From: Rhodohalobacter sulfatireducens
GTDB lineage: Bacteria > Bacteroidota > Rhodothermia > Balneolales > Balneolaceae
DNA length: 64,000 nucleotides
NCBI RefSeq assembly: GCF_022012475.1
Contig: NZ_JAKLWS010000004.1
Location: 186,001-250,000 of the forward strand
Reading direction: 5' to 3'
Part shown: positions 40,105 to 56,710 of the stretch, piece after piece
How positions within the stretch are numbered: the stretch's first letter is position 1
How the letters are laid out: the number at the start of each line of letters is the position of its first letter
Position numbers and translations under genes: made by a program
Notes under the pieces: model-generated
Databases searched by the model: none
The model's input: the letters and a program-made list of their open reading frames with translations, nothing else
Told to the model about the DNA's origin: nothing

Positions 40105-40830
40105 TCAGGATTCGGGCTCCTCTTTTGAATCGTCTTCCTCTTTCCCGTTTTCGTTCTTTTCATCCATCTCTTCTGCAAAATCTTCAAACAGTTCCCTTGC
40201 CTCTTCATCTTCAAGCTCCATCTGCCGTTCCATCAGCAAGCGGCGATGTTCAGCCATGTCATCATCTTTTAAAATTTCGTCAATCTCTCGCGGTTTTGGA
40301 AGTTCATCGACAGAATTAATACCAAAATGTTTCAAAAAATATGTAGTCGTTTTGTAGAGCAATGGTTTCCCGGGTGAATCTGCTCGACCAGAAACTTTAA
40401 CCAACATTTTCTCCAACAGCTGCCGAAGAATATATCCTGAATCCACGCCCCGAATTCCATCCACTTCCGGTTTGGTAATCGGTTGCCGGTAGGCTACAAT
40501 GGCCAGTGTTTCGATAGCGGGTTGAGACAATTTTCGATAAGCGTTCTCATGTTGAAAAATACTAAGCCACGGGTGATACCTCGGCTGAGTGATAAACGTA
40601 TAACCACCCCCTGTTTCTTCAATACGGAAAGACAGATCGTTCTCCTCAAACCGGGTATTCAACTGATCCACAATTTTTTGAATGACTTTCTGATCCAACT
40701 CCAGCTCTTCCTCACTCTCTTTTATGATGTCCGATAACTTTTCCCATGATATCGGTTCGGGACTGGAAAAAATGAGAGCCTCAATCACTGAGGTAAGCCG
40801 GGTTCCATCTACAAATCGGTAATCTAACAT
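40105..40830 (-). CDS. scpB: segregation and condensation protein B
   Basis: ScpB is part of the SMC-ScpAB condensin that compacts chromosomes. The 241 residues carry tandem winged helices with LTSVIEALIFSSPEPISWEKL at the start and LSQPAIETLAIVAYRQPITKPEVDGIRGVDSGYILRQLLEKMLVKVSGRADSPGKPLLYKTT, the strongly conserved part. An unusual acidic C-terminal tail of about 55 residues (Glu/Asp-rich) follows. No scpA is in the window. It is downstream of the hydrolase gene with a gap of about 80 bases that holds a CCCCGA/TCGGGG hairpin. Confidence 0.93.
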   Translation of the reverse strand: MLDYRFVDGTRLTSVIEALIFSSPEPISWEKLSDIIKESEEELELDQKVIQKIVDQLNTRFEENDLSFRIEETGGGYTFITQPRYHPWLSIFQHENAYRKLSQPAIETLAIVAYRQPITKPEVDGIRGVDSGYILRQLLEKMLVKVSGRADSPGKPLLYKTTTYFLKHFGINSVDELPKPREIDEILKDDDMAEHRRLLMERQMELEDEEARELFEDFAEEMDEKNENGKEEDDSKEEPES

Positions 40831-40909: not shown

Positions 40910-42061
40910 CTAACGCCGGTAACATATTAACGTATTTTCATCTTTTTGCGTAACCCGGTATCCCAACAGGTGAAAAATATCTTTAACCAGGAAACGTGCT
41001 GTATTGGTATCGACCTCAAAACTATTATCACTTAATTTGCTTACACCCGGCAGATATTTCAGCAAATCGTGAAAAAAGCTTTGCCGTAAAACACCCGAGA
41101 GTGTCAGCCAGAATTGTGGCACCTCGCGGACGATTAAGAATCCATCATGTCCAACTTTCTGGTATAATGGCATAAAGATTCGGCCCGATACAGGGGCTTT
41201 AATCAATTGATCATTTTCATAGGCCAGCGGGGTCTCTTTTTCCACCTGATTAAAATTTTTAAATCCTGATATCATCTCAAACTTTTTTGGGTCTTCAACG
41301 ATTTTATGGTGGATCACTTCGTAATAGGTATCGGGAACACCGTTGCTGTTTCTTAAAATATCCTCATTTAGCAAAACCTTCTTTTCGGTTAGCCTGTGAA
41401 GCCCTAAACGATGTAGGACCAGCCATATAAATGCCTGGCATCTTTCCACTGATTCTATTGCCCGGTGTGCCCCCGCCTCAAACCCAATGGCTTTAAATCC
41501 CAGGTTGTTGATGTAGCTTAGAAGTGTTCCCTTTATATTCTCTTCAATCCCTAAAATTTGAGGTACCGGGAACTCACGTGCCAGGTTTCTGTTCGGCAGG
41601 GTGTCGTTCAAAAGGATAAAAGCACAGCTTTGCGAGGATGTGGTATGCAGGTCAATAAATATAAACTCACTGGCAGACCCTGAATGCTTCTCAATGATAT
41701 GATCGATCGCTTTTTTAATTTCCAGGCTTTCGACGTACTCAACCGGTCGGTTTTCTGCTTTTCGTATAGAAAAATCCTGGTTTGTATTAAACCTCTCCCA
41801 TAATCGATTCAGGTCGGTATCAAGAAAACGTACACCTAGCTTTACTGCTTCAATATTCCCGGTTATTGCATAGGCAGAACCGTTTATCTCATGACCTGAA
41901 AGTTGTTGAGCAACATGATCTACTGCATGAATACCTGCCGGCTCATTCCCGTGGATGCCCACAAAAAAAACGATTACAGGCCCCTCTTGATACCCAGTTT
42001 TCGCCCATCGTATCCGCTTAATTTTTTTTGGCTCTTTGTTTTTTGTTTTAGTCTTTTGCAT
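40910..42061 (-). CDS. aspartoacylase/succinylglutamate desuccinylase-family zinc hydrolase
   Basis: A 383-residue member of the M14-like AstE/AspA family. Zinc ligands are visible: His37 and Glu40 in GIHGNEPAG and a His in FIDLHTTSS; DTDLNRLW supplies the conserved Arg. Such enzymes cut N-acyl bonds of acidic amino acids or act on small amides. The 5' end overlaps the upstream GCS2-CBS gene by 14 bases, so it is translationally coupled to two carboxylate-amine ligases. Whether it reverses or trims their product is inference. No signal peptide. Confidence 0.85.
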   Translation of the reverse strand: MQKTKTKNKEPKKIKRIRWAKTGYQEGPVIVFFVGIHGNEPAGIHAVDHVAQQLSGHEINGSAYAITGNIEAVKLGVRFLDTDLNRLWERFNTNQDFSIRKAENRPVEYVESLEIKKAIDHIIEKHSGSASEFIFIDLHTTSSQSCAFILLNDTLPNRNLAREFPVPQILGIEENIKGTLLSYINNLGFKAIGFEAGAHRAIESVERCQAFIWLVLHRLGLHRLTEKKVLLNEDILRNSNGVPDTYYEVIHHKIVEDPKKFEMISGFKNFNQVEKETPLAYENDQLIKAPVSGRIFMPLYQKVGHDGFLIVREVPQFWLTLSGVLRQSFFHDLLKYLPGVSKLSDNSFEVDTNTARFLVKDIFHLLGYRVTQKDENTLICYRR

Positions 42062-43949
42062 CCGAGTGTTTCTTCATCTTATTCCAGATATCCTGTGTAT
42101 CCTTATCTGTAATAATTCCTACGAGCACATCTTTTTCAACTACAGGAAGACAGCTGATATTCTTATCAATCATCAACAGCATGGCATATTTTATATCTTC
42201 ATTCGGGCCTATGGTAATGGGATCCTTCTCCATCACATCAGACGCCGTGGCAAGGCCATCTTTTTCTGGATTGTTAAGATAATGAACCAAGCGATTTTTT
42301 GTAATGATTCCTTTCAATTTTCCGCGGCTGTCCTCTACAGGAAGATGGTTAATATCTCTCCAATCCATAACTTTTAAAACCAACTCTGCAATATCATTTT
42401 CTGTGACGGTAACAAGATTGGTCGTCATAATATTACTAACCAGATCATATTGTATTTCAAAATCTGCGCCCTCACTCTCACCGGCTAATTCCCACTCGTG
42501 AACCGGTTTATCAGAAGATCTGCGATTATGCATGATAGCGGTGAGTGCTACCGTGGCTTCGTCTCGTTCCATCGTTTTCCGAAGGTTTCGGTAGCTGTCT
42601 ACAATCCATCGTGAACCGGTTGCATAATTTTCTGCACGGGCCTCAATAATATCCAGATTTTTATCAATATCCTTCTTATCTACTCCCTTCTTCTCGAGGC
42701 CTTCGCGAGCCATTGGAATGAGCATCTCCAGAATGAGCCTCCTGGCCGACATCAATTTACCATCCCATATCATTCCGCTTTGGATTCCCCACATAGCGGC
42801 TTTGTAGAAATTTTCCTTTACCTCGTCAAAATTAATGCGATTCCAAATATTCCGATACTTGTCAGGCAGGTTACTCATCAACCCAACCCAGAAGGCAAAA
42901 TCTGCTATTTCATCCTCTACAGTAGGTCCGGACGGCAGGTATCGGTTTTCAATCCGAAGATGAGGAGTGCCATCCAAAACCCCGTAACAGGGACGGTTCC
43001 ATTTATAAATGGTACCGTTATGAAGCTGCAGAGCTTTTAGCTTTGGGATTTCACCGTTATTCAGGGTTTCAAGTGAATCACTCTCAATGTCCGTCAAAAA
43101 TAATAATGTATGCCGGGCAATATCATTCTTATATACATCCGATACGCTTCGGATCCAGCGATTTCCGAACGTTACGCGTTGTTCCCTTTCTCTCAGATGA
43201 TATCCCTTACCACGCGTATCAATACTCTGTTGAAAAAGAGGAATTCGCGTTTCTGCCCATAACTGTTTACCAAAAAGAAGCGGGGAATTGCACGCCACCG
43301 AAAGTACGGGACCGGAAAGCATCTGAGCCCAATTGTACATGTCTGTAAAGTCATCCGGTTCAACCTGGTAGTGGCATTGAAAACTGGTATTGCAGGCTTC
43401 AAACAGAATATTACTGTGAGTAAGTATTAATTCATCTACGCCGGTAATGTTCAACTCAAACTCTCCACCTCTCAATTCAGAAATAATATTTGCCAACGCT
43501 TCATAACGCTTTTTGGGTGTCATGTACTCAAGTTGTACAGCTCTGAAATCGATCGATGGCAAGATACCTGTTAGTATAATGGTTTCTTCCAGGGTATTGG
43601 CTGCATCTTCAGCTTTATTCAGGAGAGTTTTAAGTTGTGCTTCTACCCGGCTAAAACAATCACCACTTAACTCTATTGGATCGAGATTAAACTCAAGATT
43701 ATATTTGGCAAGCTCGGGGGTTAAATGGGGGTCATCCACCTTCTCTAAAATTGTCAAAGCATTCATGGAGGGTTTGAAATACTTGTCAACCAGGCAAAAC
43801 TCCTGTTCCGCACCAATACGGGTCACCCCCGATTCTATCTGCTTATTTTGAAGCATCTGGTCAATTGCCTCAACATCGTGTAACAGATGCTTAAGGAATA
43901 ACTTCCGTGATTCCGGATCTTTTGCAATTGATAGTTTCTGCTCACCCAT
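42048..43949 (-). CDS. GCS2-family carboxylate-amine ligase fused to CBS pair, copy 2
   Basis: A 633-residue protein. Residues 15-490 belong to the GCS2 glutamate-cysteine ligase-like family (RIGAEQEFCLVDKYFKP, NLEFNLDPIELSG, CNTSFQCHYQV, NSPLLFGKQLWAETRIPLFQQSIDTR, LHNGTIYKWNRPCYG, LRIENRYLPSGPTVEDEIAD). Residues about 510-630 are two CBS motifs (VTENDIAELVLKVMDWRDINHLPVED, CLPVVEKDVLVGIITDKD), which bind adenine nucleotides and may gate activity. The gene starts 14 bases after the paralogue ends. It probably joins an acidic amino acid to an amine or peptide; the substrate is unknown. Confidence 0.85.
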   Translation of the reverse strand: MGEQKLSIAKDPESRKLFLKHLLHDVEAIDQMLQNKQIESGVTRIGAEQEFCLVDKYFKPSMNALTILEKVDDPHLTPELAKYNLEFNLDPIELSGDCFSRVEAQLKTLLNKAEDAANTLEETIILTGILPSIDFRAVQLEYMTPKKRYEALANIISELRGGEFELNITGVDELILTHSNILFEACNTSFQCHYQVEPDDFTDMYNWAQMLSGPVLSVACNSPLLFGKQLWAETRIPLFQQSIDTRGKGYHLREREQRVTFGNRWIRSVSDVYKNDIARHTLLFLTDIESDSLETLNNGEIPKLKALQLHNGTIYKWNRPCYGVLDGTPHLRIENRYLPSGPTVEDEIADFAFWVGLMSNLPDKYRNIWNRINFDEVKENFYKAAMWGIQSGMIWDGKLMSARRLILEMLIPMAREGLEKKGVDKKDIDKNLDIIEARAENYATGSRWIVDSYRNLRKTMERDEATVALTAIMHNRRSSDKPVHEWELAGESEGADFEIQYDLVSNIMTTNLVTVTENDIAELVLKVMDWRDINHLPVEDSRGKLKGIITKNRLVHYLNNPEKDGLATASDVMEKDPITIGPNEDIKYAMLLMIDKNISCLPVVEKDVLVGIITDKDTQDIWNKMKKHSDAKD

Positions 43950-43963
43950 ATTCGCTGCCTACC

Positions 43964-45919
43964 TCATTCATTGCTTAATTTCTCGGAATCTGTCTTATTC
44001 TTATCCTCATCGCTGTGTAAACGTCTTAACAATCTTGATGTGATAATCATATAATTTTGTTCCGTTATAATACCCACAAGCCGATTATTTTTCACTACAG
44101 GAAGACACCCAATTCGCTGACTGTCCATAATATCAATCGCCTCTAAAATGGATGCTTCCGGATGGATCGTAATTGGATTTTTAATCATGATCTTCTCCAC
44201 CGATTTGCTGGTATCGCCTTTATTGTGAATAATATCGTTAAACTCCCTGAATACCATACGCATGGTTATAAGCCCGACAAGGTGTTTACTGTCGTCCTCC
44301 ACGGGCACATAACGAATTCTTCGCCATTCAAATAAATTAGCCACCAACTCTATAATATCATCTTTTTGAACGGTAAACAGGTCGGTGGTCATAAACTCTT
44401 CTACCAGGAGGCTTGACGGCTGCCACATCTCCATATCGTCGAGCTTTGCCAAGCCCCATTTATGCGCCGGCTCACCCTTTTTTTGATTTTTGATCATCGC
44501 ATTCACAACGGCTGACAACGCCTGCTCCCGGCTAATATCTTTCGTGAGAGAGTTGTAAGATTTCACCATCCAGTAACTACCGGTTTGAGCCGCATCAGTT
44601 CTCTCTTTAATAATATCCAGATAACTGGTCGCATCCCCGTCATCTACACCTGCTTTTTCCAAACCTTTTTTAGCGAGAGGAAGCAGCTCTTTTGTTATCA
44701 GGTCTACAGCGGAATACCGTTTATCATCCACCCACTTAAACTTTGTATCAAGCCCCAATTTCGAAGCCGCAAAAAAGTTCATACGTGCGTCATCAAAATC
44801 CAGTTTTTTGGTGATATCCTGGTACTCTTCATCCATGCCGTTCAGTAAACCGAGCCAGAAAGATGCGTTTGCAATTTCATCACTCACCGTTGGGCCTGAT
44901 GGAAAAATTCGATTCTCAATTCGTAAATGCGGAATACCATTACTGATGCCATAACAGGGTCTGTTCCATCGATAAACAGTTCCATTATGAACTTGCAGTG
45001 CCATTAATTTTGGAATTTCCCCGTTATCCAGGAGCTCATCCACATCTTCAGTGATGTTCGAGCTCAGCATCACCCTGTATCTGGCGATATCTTCTTTGTA
45101 AATTTCCAGGATACTGTCCTTCAGCCATTCATTTCCAAATGTTACGCGAGGACTACTTTCTCTTAAATGATCTCCAACTTTTCGTGTATCTACCGATTGA
45201 TGAAACAACGCCACCCGAGTCTCAGACCATAGTCGTTTTCCAAACAGAAGCGGGGAGTTCACGGCACTTGCCAGAACCGGGCCCGTAATGGCCTGGGCAA
45301 GATTGTATTTCTGTACAAATTCATCGGGTGTTACCTGGATATGAACCTGGAAACCGGTATTACAGGCTTCCAGCAATGGCGTATCAAAACGCATCAAAAG
45401 CTCATCCATGCCCTGGATTCTTAAATCGTATTCATCTCCACGCAGCTTATTGATCGCCGCGCAAAGTGCTTTGTATCTAGGAAGTGGTGTGAGATTTTCA
45501 ATATCGAGGTCAGATTTTCGAATGGTGGGAAGAACCCCGGTTAAAACTATATCACCGTCAAACTGACGAATAGTGTCGCGAACTTTATCCAACTGGCGGA
45601 GAATATTCTCTTCCATTTTTGAGAGACAGTTACCCTCAAAATTTAGTGGTGCCAAGTTCGTCTCAAGATTAAATTTTGCCAGTTCTGTCGTAAAATTTTC
45701 ATCATCCAGGGCTTCCAGGAGTTCCATGGAGATTGGAAGTGGTTTTCCATACTTATCTACCAGGCAAAGTTCTTGTTCTGCCCCGATCCGCACAGTATCT
45801 TTTTCAAACAGATTGCTTTCCAGCATTCTTTCCATCGCCCTGATATCCTTCAACAGGTATTTGATGAACTCCTGCGTTTGCTCCCTGTTCTCTGCCAGTT
45901 TTACGGTTTCAACGCCCAT
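43964..45919 (-). CDS. GCS2-family carboxylate-amine ligase fused to CBS pair, copy 1
   Basis: A 651-residue paralogue of the next gene with the same order: GCS2 catalytic part (RIGAEQELCLVDKYGKP, NLETNLAPLNFEG, CNTGFQVHIQV, NSPLLFGKRLWSETRVALFHQSVDTR, VHNGTVYRWNRPCYG, LRIENRIFPSGPTVSDEIAN) and a C-terminal CBS pair (VQKDDIIELVANLFEWRRIRYVPVED, CLPVVKNNRLVGIITEQN). Both copies retain the acidic and Arg residues of the active site, so both may be active, perhaps as a heteromer or with different acceptors. It heads a three-gene operon ending in the zinc hydrolase. Confidence 0.85.
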   Translation of the reverse strand: MGVETVKLAENREQTQEFIKYLLKDIRAMERMLESNLFEKDTVRIGAEQELCLVDKYGKPLPISMELLEALDDENFTTELAKFNLETNLAPLNFEGNCLSKMEENILRQLDKVRDTIRQFDGDIVLTGVLPTIRKSDLDIENLTPLPRYKALCAAINKLRGDEYDLRIQGMDELLMRFDTPLLEACNTGFQVHIQVTPDEFVQKYNLAQAITGPVLASAVNSPLLFGKRLWSETRVALFHQSVDTRKVGDHLRESSPRVTFGNEWLKDSILEIYKEDIARYRVMLSSNITEDVDELLDNGEIPKLMALQVHNGTVYRWNRPCYGISNGIPHLRIENRIFPSGPTVSDEIANASFWLGLLNGMDEEYQDITKKLDFDDARMNFFAASKLGLDTKFKWVDDKRYSAVDLITKELLPLAKKGLEKAGVDDGDATSYLDIIKERTDAAQTGSYWMVKSYNSLTKDISREQALSAVVNAMIKNQKKGEPAHKWGLAKLDDMEMWQPSSLLVEEFMTTDLFTVQKDDIIELVANLFEWRRIRYVPVEDDSKHLVGLITMRMVFREFNDIIHNKGDTSKSVEKIMIKNPITIHPEASILEAIDIMDSQRIGCLPVVKNNRLVGIITEQNYMIITSRLLRRLHSDEDKNKTDSEKLSNE

Positions 45920-46306: not shown

Positions 46307-47164
46307 ATGAGCAAATCCAACAGACGGGAAATAGAATCACTTATTTATCTTTTAGAAGATCCCGACCCGGAGGTTCAGACCGGTGTAAAACAACGCTTCC
46401 AGGAACTGGGTGAACATGCCGTCCCCCTACTGGATCAGTTTCGAGCCGAATCCGTAAAGGATTCTGAAAAAGAAACGATCAACAATATAATCTATAATAT
46501 TACAGCCGGAACCGTAATTGAAGAATTTGCAGAGATTATTGAATCGGGAGTTCATGATCGCAAACAACTCGAGGGTGCTCTTTTTACGCTCTGTAAATTC
46601 GGGAATCCAACACTTCGGGTTCGGGAATACAAAAAGAAACTGGATAATTTGACGGCACAAATTGGAAGTGATATTGCCTACACACCTTCCATCAATGAAA
46701 AAATGCAGATTTTGCTGCAATATATTTTTCGCGATCTCAGGTTTCGGGGAGATTCGAGCGATTACCATAACACCGATAATGCTTATCTCGACCGCGTGAT
46801 CGACCGAAGGAAAGGCCTGCCGATAATGTTGAGTTGTGTTGTGATGTTCATCGCCCGTCGATTAGACCTTCCGTTTTACGGGGTCAATATGCCGATCCAT
46901 TTTATGCTGATGTATCAAACTCACAACCAGGAAGTCCTTATAGATCCATTTGACGGCGGAACTATAGTCACATACAATCAATGCTGCTATTTTCTAAAAA
47001 AGAATGGAATTGAGCCAAAACCCGAACATCTCGAGAAAGCCGATGAATCAGAAATTCTGGTTCGATGCATCCGTAACCTGATCCACAGCTACGCCAAAAT
47101 AAAAGATGAGAGACGAGTGGATGATTTGAGAAAGTTGCTGAATATGGCAGAGTTGGAAGGATGA
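46307..47164 (+). CDS. SirB1/transglutaminase-like protein
   Basis: A 285-residue protein. The N-terminal third resembles helical repeats (IYLLEDPDPEVQTGVKQRFQELGEHAVPLLDQF); the middle is the SirB1 (Transglut_core2) domain: LLQYIFRDLRFRGDSSDYHNTDNAYLDRVIDRRKGLPIMLSCVVMFIARRL, PFYGVNMPIHFMLMY and EVLIDPFDGG, giving a possible Cys-His-Asp triad. The family's enzymatic role is not established. The C-terminal 50 residues look like a tetratricopeptide-type helix pair. No signal peptide, so cytoplasmic. Confidence 0.82.
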   Translation: MSKSNRREIESLIYLLEDPDPEVQTGVKQRFQELGEHAVPLLDQFRAESVKDSEKETINNIIYNITAGTVIEEFAEIIESGVHDRKQLEGALFTLCKFGNPTLRVREYKKKLDNLTAQIGSDIAYTPSINEKMQILLQYIFRDLRFRGDSSDYHNTDNAYLDRVIDRRKGLPIMLSCVVMFIARRLDLPFYGVNMPIHFMLMYQTHNQEVLIDPFDGGTIVTYNQCCYFLKKNGIEPKPEHLEKADESEILVRCIRNLIHSYAKIKDERRVDDLRKLLNMAELEG

Positions 47165-47663: not shown

Positions 47664-49220
47664 TTACAATAATATGGAAACCCCACCCCGTCTGGGATCT
47701 CCAAATCCTGAAAAATGTCCCTCCTTCACCGAAACAGCATGAACACCCCCGAAAAACAGGTTTCCCTTTTCCCATATTTTGTGATTCGGGTATTTTTCTG
47801 ATAATTCCGCGATAATCTCCTCAGAAAAACCCTTTTCAATATTCAGGAAATCATTCTCAAAGTGAATTCTGGGTGCTTGAATGGCTTCTTTCAAGTCCAT
47901 TTCATTATCAATCAGGTTGAGCAGAACCTGTAAGATCGCAGTGCGAATTCGATTTGAACCCCCTGAGCCGAGCACTACTTTTTTACCATCCCTTAACTGA
48001 ATAATGGCCGGTGCCATCATTGAACTTATCCGTTGGTCTGCAGGCCAGTTGTAAAATCCCACCGGGTTGAGATCTTCTTCACCCAGCATGTTATTCATCA
48101 TCACACCGGTTCCGGGGATCATCACCCCGCTTCCGGAACCATTGCTGGTTGTAAGGCTTGCCATATTTCCATCAGTATCAACAATACTGATCTGCGTTGT
48201 GCCCCTGGAGGCTTTTCGCCGATGTTGTACCTGTTTTTTGTACATCTCAATGAAAGGGGCATGCAACATTTCCTCGAATTTATTAGGATCATCATTCTCA
48301 ATTATATTTTCAATCCGAGCCCGATTGGTCATCTCTTGCACCTCCACAAGAAGCTCCGAAAAAGATTGGAATGACTTTCGGTCTAATGATTCCATCAACT
48401 TCAGTGCAAATGCAATCAACAACCCACCTGAGCTTGGTGGCGGATTCATACTCAACGAACTGTCCCTGTATTCCAAATGCAGTGGATCTCTCTTCTCAAC
48501 CCGATAATTTACCAGGTCCTCGCGAGTCAGATGACCACCTTCCTCTTCACAAATCCTGCATATTTTATCAGCTACTTCTCCATCATAAAAATACGATTCG
48601 CCTTCCATCGCCAACTCTTCTATAAAATCTGCCAGCCGGGGTTGAGTTAGCCATTCTCCCTCCGAAATAAACGCTCTATCTTTTTTTCGACTCCTGAAAA
48701 TTTTTGAAGCTTCCTTGTTGGATGCATATATCGCCTCCGTAATCTGGATAGCACCGGCCTGAAATGAGTTCATCTTTACTCCATCTCTCGCCAACTTTAT
48801 GGCAGGCTCCGCAAGACCTGGAAATGGCATAGAACAGAGATCCCGATGGATTTCAAATAATCCTTTAACCGTTCCCGGCGTGGCCATAGATCCCGGTCCG
48901 ATATGAAATTCCTGTTTTGCGTATCCAAAATCGGCAGATATAGGAAAGAAAGAGAACTCACTTTTAGGTTTGATTTTGCGGGGAGTCTGAACGAAAAAAT
49001 CGTACAATGTTTGCTGACCACCGGCCGTTTCAGCTAGCAAAAACCCACCTCCTGCAAAAGATGCCAAAACTGGCTCAACTACACAGGCTGTAAGATTAGC
49101 AGCTACAACTGCATCAAAAGCATTCCCACCACTTTTTAAAATTTGTGCAGCTGTCTCTGCTGTGGCCTGATGACCAGCCGAAACAGCTCCAATTGTATGA
49201 TTATTTAATTTCTTAGGCAC
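47664..49220 (-). CDS. gamma-glutamyltransferase family protein
   Basis: A 518-residue Ntn-hydrolase precursor. The autoprocessing threonine is probably Thr341 in RGTTQISIVDTDGNMAS, giving a large subunit of 340 and a small one of 178 residues. Other family motifs are GGNAFDAVVAANLTACVVEP, ASFAGGGF, PPPSSGGLLIAFAL and SGSGVMIPGTGVMMNNML. The usual His after TT is Gln. There is no signal peptide, unlike periplasmic Ggt, so it may be cytoplasmic and act on gamma-glutamyl compounds or related amides. It stands alone. Confidence 0.85.
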   Translation of the reverse strand: MPKKLNNHTIGAVSAGHQATAETAAQILKSGGNAFDAVVAANLTACVVEPVLASFAGGGFLLAETAGGQQTLYDFFVQTPRKIKPKSEFSFFPISADFGYAKQEFHIGPGSMATPGTVKGLFEIHRDLCSMPFPGLAEPAIKLARDGVKMNSFQAGAIQITEAIYASNKEASKIFRSRKKDRAFISEGEWLTQPRLADFIEELAMEGESYFYDGEVADKICRICEEEGGHLTREDLVNYRVEKRDPLHLEYRDSSLSMNPPPSSGGLLIAFALKLMESLDRKSFQSFSELLVEVQEMTNRARIENIIENDDPNKFEEMLHAPFIEMYKKQVQHRRKASRGTTQISIVDTDGNMASLTTSNGSGSGVMIPGTGVMMNNMLGEEDLNPVGFYNWPADQRISSMMAPAIIQLRDGKKVVLGSGGSNRIRTAILQVLLNLIDNEMDLKEAIQAPRIHFENDFLNIEKGFSEEIIAELSEKYPNHKIWEKGNLFFGGVHAVSVKEGHFSGFGDPRRGGVSILL

Positions 49221-49315: not shown

Positions 49316-52300
49316 TTAAAACTTTCTTGCAATCACGACAGTCTCTTTAAAGGATAGATTTTTCCCGTTGGCGCTATTATAAGCTTCTAACAGTACAATG
49401 TAAATTCCCACCCGATTTCTGAGACCATCATCGTTTTTCCCATCCCAAATTAATGAGCCTTTAAAACCGGCTCGTTTGGCCTCAGCCAGTTTCCGAACCA
49501 GCCTCCCAAAGCGATCATAAATTCTCACTTTAATCAGGTAATCAGGTTCATCAAATGAATAATTGATCAGCAGGTTATCCTCAAAACCGTCACCATCGGG
49601 AGAAAACGGGTTGGGCGTAAAATCAAGATCGTTGCCGCTGATCGTCTGTTCAGATCCTTGGTAAATAGAGTTTTCTGACCCGGGAGAACCACCGAGTGGA
49701 GTGGAATTTGAACCCCAGTTTGCTTCATCATTTGTTTCAAAATTTGGATTGATCCGTTCGAGAGAAATTCCTTTCGTATCTACGATATTCGGGTTGTGCC
49801 ATTCCGGAACATAAGCCACCATATCGATGGTTTGCATCGTGCTGTCGGCCAGGTAAATTTGGCGGCCGGTGTTAGTAAGGCTAAGCGTGGTCCGGTCAGT
49901 TTGAATCGCAAATTCCTGCATATTACCGGAGAGACCAAAAAAATCAGCAGTACGGCTGTTTGTGAATGGAATATCCTCCGGTTCGGGATAGATCAGTGCA
50001 TATCCATTAGCAGGCAGCCACTGTCGATGGCTCCGAATCGGTTCAATGATAGAAACCTCACCATCCTCATCCGGTTCATCATGCAATACAAATCCTTCGA
50101 GTGAAATGGCATAGGAGCGACGATTATAAATTTCTACATACTGGGATTGATCCGGCAAACCGTCTCGCTCTTCAGAAATCGGATCAAACATAATTTCATT
50201 GAAAATGATGTCGCCTTCAGAAATAGGCTGTGCAATCGGCTGCTGCAATTGAGTTGCCATGTTGCCCTTGTAATCACCCAAATTTTCTACACTTAATGTA
50301 ACCTCCTCGCCCCGGGAAACGACTGAACCATCCAGAATCACCCGATCACCTGAATCCTCATCATAATAAAGAAGCTCGGCCGAAGTGCCGTTCAACAGGA
50401 ATCGGGCGTTGAATTGAGCCTGTTTTTGAACCCCTCCGCCTTTAGCCAACTTGTTCTCGCCGCCAAGTGCCAGATCTACGTATTCATTAAATTCAACTTC
50501 AATTGAATCCTGATGAATAAAATTGGCAAACAAAATTTCCGGGGCTGACTCATCTATTTCGAATATGCTGTTTTCCATGCCCGGTGTTGAGCCACGCTCG
50601 GATGTGCTGGACTCCCAATTCCCGGGATCGGTTGAAAGGCCTGCCGGATCTTTTCTTTCGAGTGAGATTCCCGGCTCGTCAACTCCCCAGTCGGCCTGAT
50701 AATATAGACTATCGATGACGCTTCCGGTTGATTTTTTTAACGTTATTGCATCTCCGCTGTTATTAAGTGACTGGAAATCGGGAACGAACACAAATTTATT
50801 GGAATCGTCTGCTAAGTGTTGGGAATCTGTGAATACCAGGGTTTCATGTTTGCGAATGTTTACCCCTCTTGGAATTTCCGTTTCATCTGTAGAATCACCC
50901 AAAAGCCAGCCGGACAGATCGTAATTTGAATCTGTTCTATTGAATATCTCAATAAATTCTGCACTGGAATCATCAGACGGTTCATACATGATTTCATTAA
51001 TCACAACCTGTCCGGGCGCTATATCTCCAAACTCCAAGTATCGGACAGAGACAGTGACAGACTCAATTTCATTTCCGAAAATATCACCTATTCTGCTGAT
51101 TGTAATCTCATATTCCTGGTCGTTCACCAGTTCATCCCCTGCAAAAAGGATCACCTCATTTCGATCCAACGCAATCATTGAGATCGGCAAATTTGGTGTG
51201 ATATTATAATTTTCATCATCTGTTGCCTGGTCACTGTTCAGACGTTCATTGAATGTCAATATAAAGCCCTGGTCCTGGTACTGAGCTGCACTCACAATTT
51301 CAGGAGGACTTACATCGGGTTCGGCTTCATTTGGTAATCCCGGAGTTCCCAGTAACTCATTTGGAGATTCGGCCCAGTTTTCACGGATTGTGCTCTCCAC
51401 ATCATAGCTCAAACGCTCTAAAGCCACACCATTTCCGCCCCATTCCGATGGTTCGTATTGAAGGGAATCTGCCATCGAGCCGCTGTTCGTAAAAAGTCTA
51501 ATTTGATCAGCAACAGTAAGCGTAAAAGTCGGGAAATTTGAAAGCTCAATGATATTTCGCTCACCAAAAATCTTTTGCAGAGCCTCCGAATCTTCCGTTA
51601 AAACGATTAATTCACCGGGTTCCAGGGCGAGATCGTCTTCAGAAATGATTCGCTCTGAATCGCCCGTAACATCTCTTCGCTGAAGGCGCCATTTTCTGAG
51701 GTTTAATAATTTGCTTGAAGTGTTAATCAGCTCTACATAGCGCACATACCCAGAGGGCGGGCGATACATAAACTCATTGATCAGGATATCTCCATCACTG
51801 AACGTATCAAATATTGTAAACTGAATTTCTAAATCTTCACCTATTGAAAATCCACCCGCCGATCTCAAATTATCATCAATTACTAATGTTCGCTGACCAC
51901 TTTCCAACGGATCAGAAAATTCAAGAAGAAGGATTTGGTTCGTTTCTAATATAACTGAATTTGGTCTGGTACCATCAACTGCGAAAAATGCAGGATCGAC
52001 ATTACTGTTGCTAACATTCGCATTAAATTCAACCCGGACCGATGTAGGCGATATCGAACGGGCACCAACAGCTATGAAATTAAAATCACCCTCAATTTCA
52101 TTCGGCAGTCCCGGAGTACCGAAATCTTCGCTTGGCGAATCGGCCCAGTTTTCTGAATACAGCGAGGAACGATTGGCTCGACGACGTTCCAGGGATACTC
52201 CGTCACCACCCCACTCAGGGCGATAGCGCAGAGAATCGATTATCACACCTTCGGCATTTGCCACCACCACATTATCACCTCCATTTTTCAATGTTGAGAG

Positions 52301-55300
52301 CCCCGTTCCCGCATTCAAGTGAGGGATATCCTGAAAGATGTTCAAAAGATTGAAATTCGGCAGAATGGCGATATAGGAATTCGGCGGAAGGATTTTTTGC
52401 TCATTGGTGAGAATATTTCTTGATGCTGTATCATTTGCCTGCTGCCAGCCGGCCAGGTCAATTGCTTTATCACTGACATTATACAGTTCGATATACTCAG
52501 TATAATTATCCGGCTCATTGTACATGATCTCATTGATTACAACATCACCCGGTTCGGCTGTTTCAATCAAATAGTAGGTGAATGAGACAGATGCTTGATC
52601 CAGTTCATTGCCAAAAATGTCAGGAATATCACTGACCGTTATAGTATAGGATTGCCCAGAATTAAGGGTTTCATCTAAAAACAGTACAGCTTCGGTACTG
52701 CTGGTAAAGGTAACTTCATCGATAGAAATGCCGCCACTTATATCAAAGTTACTTCGATAAATCTTTGCTTGATCCAATGCCCCTGAAAACAACACCCGAA
52801 TGCTCTTTTCGTCTATATAATCAGCACTCAGAAGCTTTGGTCCTTCTGTGTCGACATCAACCGAGTTTTCCTCACCCGGTGTTCCTTTGAGTATGGCCAG
52901 GGATTCGTTCCAGTTGTTCATATCGGAGCTAATGGCCCCTTGGTCAATTCGTTCGAGAGCCACTTCATCCCCACCCCACTCCGAACTGTATCGGAGGGAA
53001 TCGAGCGTAACGCCTTCGGCATTCGTGATGACAATCTCATCCCCGCTGTTTTTAAGCGCCGGAAGACTGCTGCCTGCATTAATAAAGTCAATATCCGGGA
53101 AAACGCTGAGTAGTTCTTCGTTGGGCAAAATAATCATGTATGATTCCGGTGGAAAATAGACCTGCCCTTCGGTCAAAACCCTGCGGGTAGCGGTGTCATT
53201 GGCCTGCTGCCAACCTGAAAGATTGAATACTTTATTACTGATATTATACAGCTCAACATATTCAGTATAACCATCCGGCTCATCATACATAAACTCATTG
53301 ATAACAATATCCCCAGGCTCGGATGTTTCAACAAAGTAGTAGGTAAAAGAGGCCTGATCTTCATCCAGTTCATTGCCAAAGATGTCGGGAATATTGGTGA
53401 CGGTGATTGTGTAGGATTGTCCTGAATTCATCTCCTCATCTAAAGAGAGTTCTGTCTGAGTTGAGTTGATGAATGAAACACCACTGATGGAGGGACTTCT
53501 GTTGATGTCAAAATTTCCGGTTGAAATCACATCTGTGTCCAACGATCCTCTGAAGGTGACCAAAACGGTTTCTGCATCTATAAATTCAGCCGATATAAGT
53601 ACGGGGGCATCATCCGGACTGACTGTGTTATCTTCGCCCGGAGTACCCAAATCTTCATCCAACGACTCGCCCCAATTGTTCGGATTGTTCGCCGGTGCAC
53701 CACTACTGCGACGTTCCAGTGCAATTTCAGAACCACCCCATGTCGTAGGATCGTACTCAATCATTTCCACCGGATCTCCATCAGGATCAAGAAATCGAAT
53801 TTGGTCTGATACAGTTTGAGTAAAACCGGGGAACTCTGTCATTTCAAACCAGGGCCCTGACCCAAACTGATCTTTTAACAGTTCTGAATCTTCCGTGATC
53901 ACGAGGTAACCTCCGGGTTCGATAGGCTGATCGAATTCAGTAATTGCACCACCTAAACTTGTTGAACCTTCCGCCCGAAGCAGTTCAAAATTTTTTATGG
54001 TTAAAAAACGACCGGATTGATTATAAAGCTCCACATATTGTGGATATCCACCGGGAGGGTTGTACATAAATTCGGTGATCAGAATATCGCCATCTTGGTA
54101 CTCATCAAACCGGAAAAAATCTGCTTTAGAATTATCCTCAATCTGCCAGCCTTCCGTTAAACTCTCCAAATCGTTCACAACGATTTCGTAACTGCCGGTT
54201 GAGAAAGAATCGCCAAAGGAAAGACGAACCGTTTCGGAATTGTCAAAGGTGAAGCTGGAGGGAGCCGTTCCATCTCCCAATTCAAAATCTGATAGATCAA
54301 CGGTTGAAACTTGCAAAGGCAGCGTGAACTGAACGAGCACATCGTTGGTGCCATCTGTTTCCGCAGACAGAATTCGAAATGGATTTTCGAACGTGAAATT
54401 AAACTCCTGCGTGCCAGAGACTTCATTACCGAAAATATCTTCCACATTTTGATAGCTAAATGTGTACTCAAACTGATCCTCCATGGTGTCATCCAGGTCA
54501 AACTTGAGCGTTCGAGGATCGGAAGTAAATTCAGCATTATTGATTACTTCCCCATTGTCCAAGCTAAAGTTACCGAGGTTGTCGACCGCATCATCAGACA
54601 GCGTTCTCGAAAATGTGATTCGCAATGTAGCTGGCGATGGAAAGGATGCCTCAACTGCTCTCGGTGGATTTGTCGGTTCTGTAATCGTGCTTGGTAATCC
54701 GGGCGAGCCTGTCAGAACATCTTCCGATTCAGCCCAGTTATCCCGGATGTCAGCTGAAACGTCAAATGAATAACGTTCGAGTGAGACCTCGTCGCCACCC
54801 CACTCACCGGCATCGTAGGTCAGTGATTCAATCTCTTCATCTTCATTTGTTTCGAGAATAATTTCATCGGAAGTTGTTAAAACCAGTTCTGGAAATTCAT
54901 CGGCCTCAACAAAATTTCGATCTCCAAACTGTTCTTCAAAAACCGGAACACCTCTCGTGATGACAAGATATTCACCCGATTCAATCGGCAGATCTTCATC
55001 AATGCTGATGTTCTCATCATTGATCGTAAAATTCCGCAGGTTCAGTAGTTTATCAGCCCTGTTGTGTATCTCTACGTATTGGGGACGATCGTAGGTGGCG
55101 GTTCGCCAGGATATCGGCACACGATAATAAAACTCGCTAATCACGAGATCGCCTGCATCATATTCATCAAACAATGTAAATTCAACGGTTGTACCTGTTT
55201 CGATTTGCCAATCTGAGTTGCTTGATATATTCTCGATTTCAAGTACGCGCTCACCTACATCAATCGGCGTGCTGTACGTGATTCGAACCTGGTCCGACTC

Positions 55301-56710
55301 TTCAAGGCTGACATTCTTTGGCGAACCAAAGCCTGTAATTTCAAAGTCTTCCTTATCAAGAGTTGCATAATCGATATTCTGCGAGAATGTGATTTCGAAT
55401 TCGGTACGGCTCAAATATTCAAAATCTGTGACGAAGAAAGGATTGGAAACCGTGAAATCGAATTCCCTTGCACCGACAATGGGCCAGTCGTCTGTGCTGG
55501 TCACATTCCGAATGGTAAGTTCATAATCTCCAATTGCCAGTGAAGAGTCCAAATTCATGTAAATCGTATTAGGTTCGGATGTATCGTCATAATCAATGGA
55601 ATTTGGGTTGATTCCACCTGTGGAGCTGGCATCTTCCGTGATCTCAAAATCTGTCAGGTTCCAGGATGTTTCAGCCGGTGGTTCGGTAAACTCAACGGAG
55701 ATACGGTTTGATGTTTCCACATTAACAGACACTACTTCAAAGGGATTGGTGACTGAAATATCTGCCTCTGAGTCTGCCGGAATCATACCGCCGTAAATGT
55801 TATCTACATCATTTACCGTTAGGGTGTAGTTGCCGTCCGGTAAAACCGAGTCGTAATTCAATCGAACGGTGAAATCATCCTCCGGGCTTACAGATGTCGG
55901 ATTCCCAAGTCCGCCATCAATTGAAAAATCAGTGGGATCAAGAGAAGTATTGTCTATTTGATAATTGAAAGTGACGTCGATTTCAGTGGCAGATGATACT
56001 TCAGCCGAAACTACATCAAAGGGTTCTGAGTTTTCAATAGAAATGTCATCAATAAAAAATTGATCTGCTCGGGAGGATGTATATTCTAAATAAAACCCAA
56101 AGTGACGGGAAGAGGTATGCATATTATCATTAGTAGTACCAACCAAACTTGGACTACCGCCATATCCTGAAGATTCATAAAGACTCCATGTGCCTGAATT
56201 ATCTCTTGTTACTCGAACCTGGAATGGCCCACCTGATGAGAGGTCTAATGTGCCCGTTAAAATTTCATTGCTGCTTCCATTTGTGTATCTCAGTAGTTTG
56301 AATCGATCATCTGATCCGCCTTCTCCATATCTTATCGCGTAACCATTTACATCTCCTTCAAAATCATCCGTATCTGAGATCAAGAAAATTTCACTAAAGT
56401 TCGATCCTGAGGGTGGAAAGTTCAGGTCTATAAAAAATTCCCATACGCCATTTGTTGTCGTAGACTCAGTTCTTATTTGAGTAGAACCTTCATCCGATAA
56501 ATTCAATCTCAGAAGATTATTCCCATTAACTTCTTCAAAACTAAAATCTAAAAGATCCCCCGTCCATTCTGGATTTTGTGTGAGATCTTCATCTTCAAAA
56601 TCATCCTCCAATATAGTTTGCTGTGCTGAAGCCTTGGTAACCATAATCAGCATAAGGAAAATGGAAACCAGTACTTTTCGAAATGTAGCGTTCCGTTTTA
56701 GTCCCATCAC
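49316..56710 (-). CDS. giant secreted protein with seven lamin-tail domains
   Basis: A 2,464-residue exported protein: signal peptide ending KASAQ, an N-terminal concanavalin-like region (about 30-230), then SbsA/Big_5-like Ig units with the recurring YEITI.DI.GN pattern, alternating with seven lamin-tail domains. Each of these starts GD/GQ-ILINEFMYxPP and continues YVELYN, with WGGDxVALER later. The C-terminal module FTPNPFSPDGDGFEDNLLINYS and VRIYDRFGRLVRKL is FlgD/gliding-type, with the end LSFKETVVIARKF. Surface attachment or secretion by a type IX-like route is likely. Probably an adhesin or matrix-bound protein; no enzymatic domain is visible. Confidence 0.85.
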   Translation of the reverse strand: MMGLKRNATFRKVLVSIFLMLIMVTKASAQQTILEDDFEDEDLTQNPEWTGDLLDFSFEEVNGNNLLRLNLSDEGSTQIRTESTTTNGVWEFFIDLNFPPSGSNFSEIFLISDTDDFEGDVNGYAIRYGEGGSDDRFKLLRYTNGSSNEILTGTLDLSSGGPFQVRVTRDNSGTWSLYESSGYGGSPSLVGTTNDNMHTSSRHFGFYLEYTSSRADQFFIDDISIENSEPFDVVSAEVSSATEIDVTFNYQIDNTSLDPTDFSIDGGLGNPTSVSPEDDFTVRLNYDSVLPDGNYTLTVNDVDNIYGGMIPADSEADISVTNPFEVVSVNVETSNRISVEFTEPPAETSWNLTDFEITEDASSTGGINPNSIDYDDTSEPNTIYMNLDSSLAIGDYELTIRNVTSTDDWPIVGAREFDFTVSNPFFVTDFEYLSRTEFEITFSQNIDYATLDKEDFEITGFGSPKNVSLEESDQVRITYSTPIDVGERVLEIENISSNSDWQIETGTTVEFTLFDEYDAGDLVISEFYYRVPISWRTATYDRPQYVEIHNRADKLLNLRNFTINDENISIDEDLPIESGEYLVITRGVPVFEEQFGDRNFVEADEFPELVLTTSDEIILETNEDEEIESLTYDAGEWGGDEVSLERYSFDVSADIRDNWAESEDVLTGSPGLPSTITEPTNPPRAVEASFPSPATLRITFSRTLSDDAVDNLGNFSLDNGEVINNAEFTSDPRTLKFDLDDTMEDQFEYTFSYQNVEDIFGNEVSGTQEFNFTFENPFRILSAETDGTNDVLVQFTLPLQVSTVDLSDFELGDGTAPSSFTFDNSETVRLSFGDSFSTGSYEIVVNDLESLTEGWQIEDNSKADFFRFDEYQDGDILITEFMYNPPGGYPQYVELYNQSGRFLTIKNFELLRAEGSTSLGGAITEFDQPIEPGGYLVITEDSELLKDQFGSGPWFEMTEFPGFTQTVSDQIRFLDPDGDPVEMIEYDPTTWGGSEIALERRSSGAPANNPNNWGESLDEDLGTPGEDNTVSPDDAPVLISAEFIDAETVLVTFRGSLDTDVISTGNFDINRSPSISGVSFINSTQTELSLDEEMNSGQSYTITVTNIPDIFGNELDEDQASFTYYFVETSEPGDIVINEFMYDEPDGYTEYVELYNISNKVFNLSGWQQANDTATRRVLTEGQVYFPPESYMIILPNEELLSVFPDIDFINAGSSLPALKNSGDEIVITNAEGVTLDSLRYSSEWGGDEVALERIDQGAISSDMNNWNESLAILKGTPGEENSVDVDTEGPKLLSADYIDEKSIRVLFSGALDQAKIYRSNFDISGGISIDEVTFTSSTEAVLFLDETLNSGQSYTITVSDIPDIFGNELDQASVSFTYYLIETAEPGDVVINEIMYNEPDNYTEYIELYNVSDKAIDLAGWQQANDTASRNILTNEQKILPPNSYIAILPNFNLLNIFQDIPHLNAGTGLSTLKNGGDNVVVANAEGVIIDSLRYRPEWGGDGVSLERRRANRSSLYSENWADSPSEDFGTPGLPNEIEGDFNFIAVGARSISPTSVRVEFNANVSNSNVDPAFFAVDGTRPNSVILETNQILLLEFSDPLESGQRTLVIDDNLRSAGGFSIGEDLEIQFTIFDTFSDGDILINEFMYRPPSGYVRYVELINTSSKLLNLRKWRLQRRDVTGDSERIISEDDLALEPGELIVLTEDSEALQKIFGERNIIELSNFPTFTLTVADQIRLFTNSGSMADSLQYEPSEWGGNGVALERLSYDVESTIRENWAESPNELLGTPGLPNEAEPDVSPPEIVSAAQYQDQGFILTFNERLNSDQATDDENYNITPNLPISMIALDRNEVILFAGDELVNDQEYEITISRIGDIFGNEIESVTVSVRYLEFGDIAPGQVVINEIMYEPSDDSSAEFIEIFNRTDSNYDLSGWLLGDSTDETEIPRGVNIRKHETLVFTDSQHLADDSNKFVFVPDFQSLNNSGDAITLKKSTGSVIDSLYYQADWGVDEPGISLERKDPAGLSTDPGNWESSTSERGSTPGMENSIFEIDESAPEILFANFIHQDSIEVEFNEYVDLALGGENKLAKGGGVQKQAQFNARFLLNGTSAELLYYDEDSGDRVILDGSVVSRGEEVTLSVENLGDYKGNMATQLQQPIAQPISEGDIIFNEIMFDPISEERDGLPDQSQYVEIYNRRSYAISLEGFVLHDEPDEDGEVSIIEPIRSHRQWLPANGYALIYPEPEDIPFTNSRTADFFGLSGNMQEFAIQTDRTTLSLTNTGRQIYLADSTMQTIDMVAYVPEWHNPNIVDTKGISLERINPNFETNDEANWGSNSTPLGGSPGSENSIYQGSEQTISGNDLDFTPNPFSPDGDGFEDNLLINYSFDEPDYLIKVRIYDRFGRLVRKLAEAKRAGFKGSLIWDGKNDDGLRNRVGIYIVLLEAYNSANGKNLSFKETVVIARKF

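Follow-up and report, generated by a model that had tools for sequence, protein, structure and literature searches.

A 64,000-nucleotide stretch of the Rhodohalobacter sulfatireducens genome (contig NZ_JAKLWS010000004.1, positions 186,001 to 250,000; hereafter the window) carries three minus-strand genes that specify two probable amide ligases, LigA and LigB, and a probable zinc amide hydrolase, HYD. Genes for such a joining enzyme and such a cutting enzyme are inherited together in many unrelated bacteria; here there are two joining enzymes and one cutter. It can be held with high confidence that this ligase-hydrolase pair is real and co-inherited, and that it probably acts as one functional unit. 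LigA (43964-45919, 651 residues) and LigB (42048-43949, 633 residues) each consist of a GCS2-type ligase domain of ~490 residues followed by a CBS pair, and HYD (40910-42061, 383 residues) is the long form of an AstE/AspA-type hydrolase. The order is LigA, LigB, HYD and then ScpB (Balneolaceae genome G000, contig C83), with a gap of exactly 14 bases between LigA and LigB (43950-43963) and an overlap of exactly 14 bases between LigB and HYD (42048-42061). The tight three-gene operon of the preliminary description of this DNA is thus confirmed to the base. It is not a chance arrangement, since intact copies of all three genes are seen again in relatives.

The best-supported mechanism, favored with modest confidence, is that the pair forms an amino-acid isopeptide through a side chain and cleaves it again. 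LigA and LigB would activate a side-chain carboxylate by phosphorylation with ATP, the gamma-carboxylate of glutamate being the likeliest one, and would join it to the amine of an amino acid, the acceptor suggested by the DxNR motif of HYD; the product would be an isopeptide of the gamma-Glu-X kind. Through the CBS pair, a nucleotide would gate the ligase. HYD would hydrolyze the same amide, and the level of the product would then be set by ligase and hydrolase together.

Co-inheritance was examined in a sample of 296 genomes of the phylum, HYD being called at an E-value threshold of 1e-25. The ligase is present in 88 genomes and HYD in 49, and both are present in 47; the hydrolase is therefore co-conserved, 47 of the 49 HYD genomes having the ligase, which bears out the earlier proposal that the two form one unit. 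The genes are adjacent in 42 of the 47 (all 36 Balneolaceae and six others). Fisher's test for co-occurrence, uncorrected for kinship, gives 1.5e-27 by genome and 1.1e-11 by genus. HYD hardly ever occurs without the ligase whereas the ligase often occurs without HYD, the pattern expected if HYD acts on ligase products. The two genomes that have HYD and no ligase also fit, because both carry another amide-ligase set beside HYD. In the first (G053), a MATCAP peptidase, a GshB-type ATP-grasp ligase and then a HYD homologue form a row (L196:4879-8786), possibly a related system. In the second (G273), homologues of MATCAP (PF08014) and ATP-grasp adjoin HYD, which lies on the opposite strand. MATCAP and GshB were considered as general partners and rejected: MATCAP is found in 15 of the 296 genomes, beside HYD in two, and is missing from the window's genome.

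The pairing recurs with a different hydrolase in the Chlorobiaceae, green sulfur bacteria in which the FMO bacteriochlorophyll protein was detected in 6/6 genomes tested. The ligase of this family has no CBS domains (matches end near position 492) and is followed by a remote AstE/AspA protein (Pfam score 36.8 bits, cut-off 25). This remote hydrolase is present in 18 of 61 Chlorobiaceae genomes and is beside the ligase in all 18. When 57 genomes were examined for both genes, 14 had both, one (G106) had the ligase only, none had the hydrolase only and 42 had neither; a further ligase-positive genome (G268) lies outside the 61. The pairing thus spans two hydrolase lineages and needs no CBS pair. 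The earlier reading, which put ligase and hydrolase together under nucleotide-sensing domains, is to this extent not supported, since the Chlorobiaceae keep the pairing with a CBS-less ligase. Co-inheritance in two separate hydrolase lineages points to one compound.

Beyond the phylum, at least 595 stretches with a relative of the ligase were found in a species collection, and the best 80 of the 595 were examined as named loci. HYD lies directly downstream of the ligase in 21 of these 80 (in one, L138, across an assembly gap), and these 21 include records from Planctomycetota, Acidobacteria, Gemmatimonadetes, Flavobacteriales and Agaribacillus; in several of the loci without HYD, fewer than 800 bases of contig remained. 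The class of one locus (L171), labelled Gammaproteobacteria and probably Gemmatimonadota, has the ligase in 85 of 246 genomes, and HYD is downstream in 15 of the 19 loci examined from these 85 genomes. A HYD-like protein is also present in 9 of 16 genomes drawn from the named loci, mostly distant from the ligase. The survey of conserved neighbors urged in the preliminary description found HYD to be the only same-direction partner conserved across phyla (36 loci; open reading frames of at least 90 codons).

A nitroreductase-family protein is encoded just upstream of the ligase and is conserved within the Gemmatimonadota-like class (L222:7024-7869 and homologues). Several other candidates were discarded. 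A 256-residue frame in the same class has no Pfam match, and both it and a 543-residue "fusion" in L213 may partly be stop-to-stop frame noise; an apparent ligase-HYD fusion in L138, one frame of 867 residues, contains a run of N between the two parts, which is the assembly gap. A defence-system reading was dropped because PADLOC gave no match for LigA, LigB or HYD. A single-sequence search of viral contigs found nothing. Full ligase-domain matches, remote and CBS-less, occur in three plasmid records, all from Actinomycetota; there is no hydrolase beside the ligase in the two annotated ones (the third is unannotated), and the remaining 15 of the 18 plasmid records hold partial matches, mostly to the CBS region.

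LigA and LigB are 45% identical over 637 aligned columns. The Pfam GCS2 model matches LigA (ligase part, residues ~41-482) with 32.6 bits against a cut-off of 21, and matches 29 of 30 members of the ligase family at E 0.01. It gives no match to LigB at E 0.1; LigB is assigned to the family because it is homologous to LigA and has the GhExE motif. This motif, G46-A47-E48-Q49-E50 in LigA, is described as the Mg/ATP signature of GCS2 ligases (PMC2588565). Residues G46, E48, E50, E86, H193, R333, E335 and R337 are invariant in 56/56 aligned ligases, LigB included, and with these active-site residues in place both enzymes look catalytically complete. The AlphaFold model of LigA, the one ligase modelled, has a mean predicted local distance difference test (pLDDT) score of 90.3 and a glutamine-synthetase-like ligase fold. 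Its structural matches are YbdK (1tt4, Z 35.1, root-mean-square deviation 2.5, 345 residues aligned; 1r8g, Z 34.6), plant glutamate-cysteine ligase (2gwc, Z 31.2), yeast glutamate-cysteine ligase (3ig5, Z 27.8) and, more weakly, Dop (4b0r, Z 19.2) and PafA (4bjr, Z 18.2). The ligase domain aligned by hhalign to a YbdK-like protein of the same genome gives a probability of 12.6 and E 0.0023.

The fold and the GhExE motif are those of glutamate-cysteine ligases, and a gamma-glutamyltranspeptidase gene lies nearby (47664-49220). LigA and LigB might then be ordinary gamma-glutamylcysteine ligases of glutathione or thiol synthesis, and HYD incidental. Genome content argues otherwise. No dedicated glutathione synthetase was found, the sole GSH-S_ATP (PF02955) match in this genome of 138 contigs, where a gap is possible, being RimK. 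The bacillithiol synthase BshC is present (356.7 bits), and a glutathione role, which the preliminary description had named as a way in which its reading could fail, is unlikely on these two grounds. The EgtA and GshA models match far below cut-off, and HYD is co-inherited with the ligase rather than incidental. Taken as a whole, the explanation by thiol synthesis is very improbable.

The weaker matches to PafA and Dop raise another explanation, in which a protein is the acceptor: the ligases would, like RimK or PafA, add an amino acid or a peptide to it, and HYD would take this off again. PafA is placed in the GCS2 superfamily (PMC2588565), the HYD of G053 sits with ATP-grasp and MATCAP, the latter a carboxypeptidase family, and the window's genome has a row of RimB, RimK and an AstE/AspA protein. 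Nevertheless, the fold of LigA is far closer to YbdK and plant glutamate-cysteine ligase than to PafA. A third gene, for example one for a small tag protein, is not conserved across phyla among open reading frames of at least 90 codons, the size range covered. Modification of a protein or peptide is considered unlikely, and the synthesis and cleavage of an isopeptide metabolite is preferred.

HYD matches the Pfam AstE_AspA_cat model (PF24827) with 59.9 bits (cut-off 25), and the NCBIfam models for AstE and aspartoacylase score far under their cut-offs (49.6 against 170, 49.4 against 180 and 38.3 against 305.65 bits). The zinc motif HxxE plus H, the DxNR motif and the catalytic E are all present, and H37, E40, D83, N85, R86, H139 and E195 are invariant in 19/19 aligned hydrolases. 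The model (pLDDT 88.7) has the two-domain AstE fold and matches succinylglutamate desuccinylase (2bco, Z 23.6, root-mean-square deviation 3.9, 279 residues aligned), DoeB (6twm, Z 22.5), aspartoacylase (2o4h, Z 19.8) and CphZ (8eip, Z 19.5). The likeness to CphZ favors the proposed reaction, since CphZ cuts a side-chain isopeptide, beta-Asp-Arg (PMC10206079). A C-terminal extension of HYD (residues ~326-383; 40913-41086) is missing from the short-form hydrolases. In human aspartoacylase, the alpha-carboxylate of the substrate, an N-acylated amino acid, is held by the arginine of DxNR; if this role applies to HYD, where the motif is invariant, the acceptor of the ligase would be an amino acid.

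AstE and DoeB, close structural matches of HYD, act in series in arginine and ectoine catabolism. HYD could likewise remove a protecting group put on a pathway intermediate by the ligase, as in biosynthetic routes with gamma-glutamylated intermediates, and the fixed order of ligase then hydrolase fits such a scheme. Against it, the neighborhoods of the pair in different phyla share no further biosynthetic gene (open reading frames of at least 90 codons), and action in series is unlikely.

Both ligases have two CBS stretches, each above the Pfam cut-off. The pair of LigA (residues ~504-636; 44012-44410) is recognized by Pfam and by fold, matching AcuB bound to AMP, ADP or ATP with Z about 19 (19.2 for AMP and ADP); that of LigB (42075-42446) is recognized by Pfam. 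Pfam matches, motifs and folds thus agree with the domain content first proposed for the three proteins, LigB being placed by homology and GhExE. The ribose-phosphate motif of CBS domains is GhhT/SxxD. The second repeat of LigB has the canonical D (GIITDKD), and LigA has N at this position (GIITEQN); among the 56 aligned ligases the position is D in 34, N in 13 and E in six. At the motif position of the first repeat, D does not rank among the six most frequent letters; the near-canonical motif is confined to the second. Nucleotide control of the ligase through the CBS pair, which the preliminary description put down to energy charge, is an inference.

Several points weigh against a nucleotide-gated, make-and-break unit. 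The ligase occurs without HYD in 41 of the 88 ligase genomes at the threshold used (two genomes of family f2, 20 from the wider class, 16 Chlorobiaceae and three others). Fourteen of the 16 Chlorobiaceae have the remote hydrolase instead; the 20 wider-class genomes keep the ligase and have no HYD. The two genes are unlinked in 5 of the 47 genomes with both, all five in f29. The usual D is missing from the CBS motif of LigA. A sequence search of solved structures with the ligase domain gave no true match and no solved glutamate-cysteine ligase, so the GCS2 assignment rests on fold, motif and Pfam. Finally, in one congener (G171, L064:10172-11635), about 163 residues of LigA are cleanly missing in frame; half of the active site, R333-E335-R337 included, has gone with them, whereas the CBS pair is kept and LigB and HYD are whole. 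Either this genome can do without LigA or its contig contains an error.

The two ligases appear to differ in origin. In a tree of 139 distinct ligases, LigA groups with ligases of the Balneolaceae, throughout which its type is found, and of other Bacteroidota. LigB falls in a separate clade with genomes of other families, f26, f34 and f2 (support 0.98, 13 rows). The HYD of the window groups with the hydrolases of the LigB clade (support 0.975) and not with the short hydrolases of about 320 residues that follow LigA in most Balneolaceae. Because LigA and LigB are in separate clades and HYD goes with that of LigB, the tandem is, as judged from the trees, not a recent duplication but a joining of ligases of different ancestry; the two paralogues of the preliminary description are therefore no simple tandem duplication. 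Two sister genomes of one genus, G231 and G262, illustrate the difference. Their LigA and ScpB genes are 78-80% identical in DNA. The stretch from one of these genes to the other holds a short hydrolase in G231 but LigB and a long HYD in G262, and here the two genomes have no DNA similarity except for one 157-base match between LigA and LigB. Presumably, a LigB-HYD pair of another lineage joined the resident LigA, where the congener has the shorter hydrolase, and one HYD therefore probably serves both ligases.

Hydrolase exchange was followed on a LigA tree of 29 Balneolaceae, which left out G171 and the six of the 36 genomes for which there was no locus (G046, G077, G127, G143, G191 and G246). 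On this tree, which has long outgroup branches and on which the long and short labels come from match strength and length, the hydrolase type changed at least four times at one locus. A single clade for the long type is rejected by the approximately unbiased test (p 2.7e-29). Since long and short hydrolases have taken each other's place while the ligase before them stayed the same, they would be expected to handle the same product.

A broader picture, rather less likely than not, is that of a cycle under nucleotide control in which an isopeptide metabolite not described before (gamma-Glu-X or beta-Asp-X) is made and broken, the hydrolase is swappable, and a complete ligase-hydrolase pair from another lineage can be added to a ligase already in place. 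Such a cycle would span Balneolaceae, other Bacteroidota, green sulfur bacteria, Planctomycetota, Acidobacteriota and Gemmatimonadota. The literature searches made gave no paper on the pairing or operon of a ligase-CBS protein with an AstE/AspA hydrolase. Since no more than a joining activity and the cutting activity that matches it are involved, two deletions, set side by side, could reveal the compound, and this would bring up the further question of which signal the CBS pair detects.

ScpB, a housekeeping gene (40105-40830, minus strand), lies 3' of the hydrolase in 14/14 Balneolaceae neighborhoods examined (L059-L072). It is a fixed flank and is not thought to belong to the ligase-hydrolase system. 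A scan for promoters and terminators gave values not clearly above those of shuffles (19 against 15.8 and 7 against 5.7). On the other side of the operon are a transglutaminase-like, SirB1-related protein (46307-47164, plus strand) and the gamma-glutamyltranspeptidase (minus strand); both stay near the operon only in G108 and G119 among the 14 loci. Further along the window, the minus strand encodes a secreted-looking protein of 2464 residues with many repeated segments (49316-56710).

By sequence, the window's genome holds three putative amide ligase-amide hydrolase clusters of different folds. On contig C52, a RimB-like retropepsin, RimK and an AstE/AspA protein that is weakly DoeB-like stand in a row (L057:7367-9686). 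On contig C72, an N-formylglutamate-amidohydrolase family protein, a YbdK-like GCS2 protein, an RLAN (RimK-like) ATP-grasp protein and a 229-residue protein, which by eye resembles a C39 peptidase, are encoded on one strand (L058:6108-10214). Iyer and colleagues (2009) reportedly gave a general description of amidoligase-peptidase neighborhoods.

Among known systems, the YbdK/GCS2 carboxylate-amine ligases (PF04107; 1r8g, 1tt4) share with LigA the GhExE motif and the fold over 345-349 residues (Z 34.6-35.1). The ligase domain of LigA is, however, more than 100 residues longer, is only 14% identical and is followed by a CBS pair, and the Pfam model covers part of LigA only, LigB having no match at E 0.1. 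Plant and yeast glutamate-cysteine ligases (2gwc, 3ig5) also share the fold, but the host of LigA has no dedicated glutathione synthetase that could be found; these enzymes are not known to have a CBS pair or a hydrolase partner. HYD has the fold, the HxxE plus H zinc motif, DxNR and the catalytic E in common with AstE, aspartoacylase and DoeB (2bco, 2o4h, 6twm), and differs from them in its C-terminal extension, its amide-ligase partner and its sub-cut-off NCBIfam scores. CphZ (8eip), an AstE/AspA-family enzyme like HYD, is described as cleaving a side-chain isopeptide, beta-Asp-Arg (PMC10206079), but it acts after cyanophycinase and the ligase of that system is cyanophycin synthetase, not a GCS2 enzyme. 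The RimK-RimB and RloA-RloC systems, as described in PMC12239564, use ATP-grasp and retropepsin folds instead; like LigA/LigB and HYD, they pair, within a single operon, a protein of the amide-ligase type with a hydrolase, and loss of rloC rescues loss of the rloA genes.

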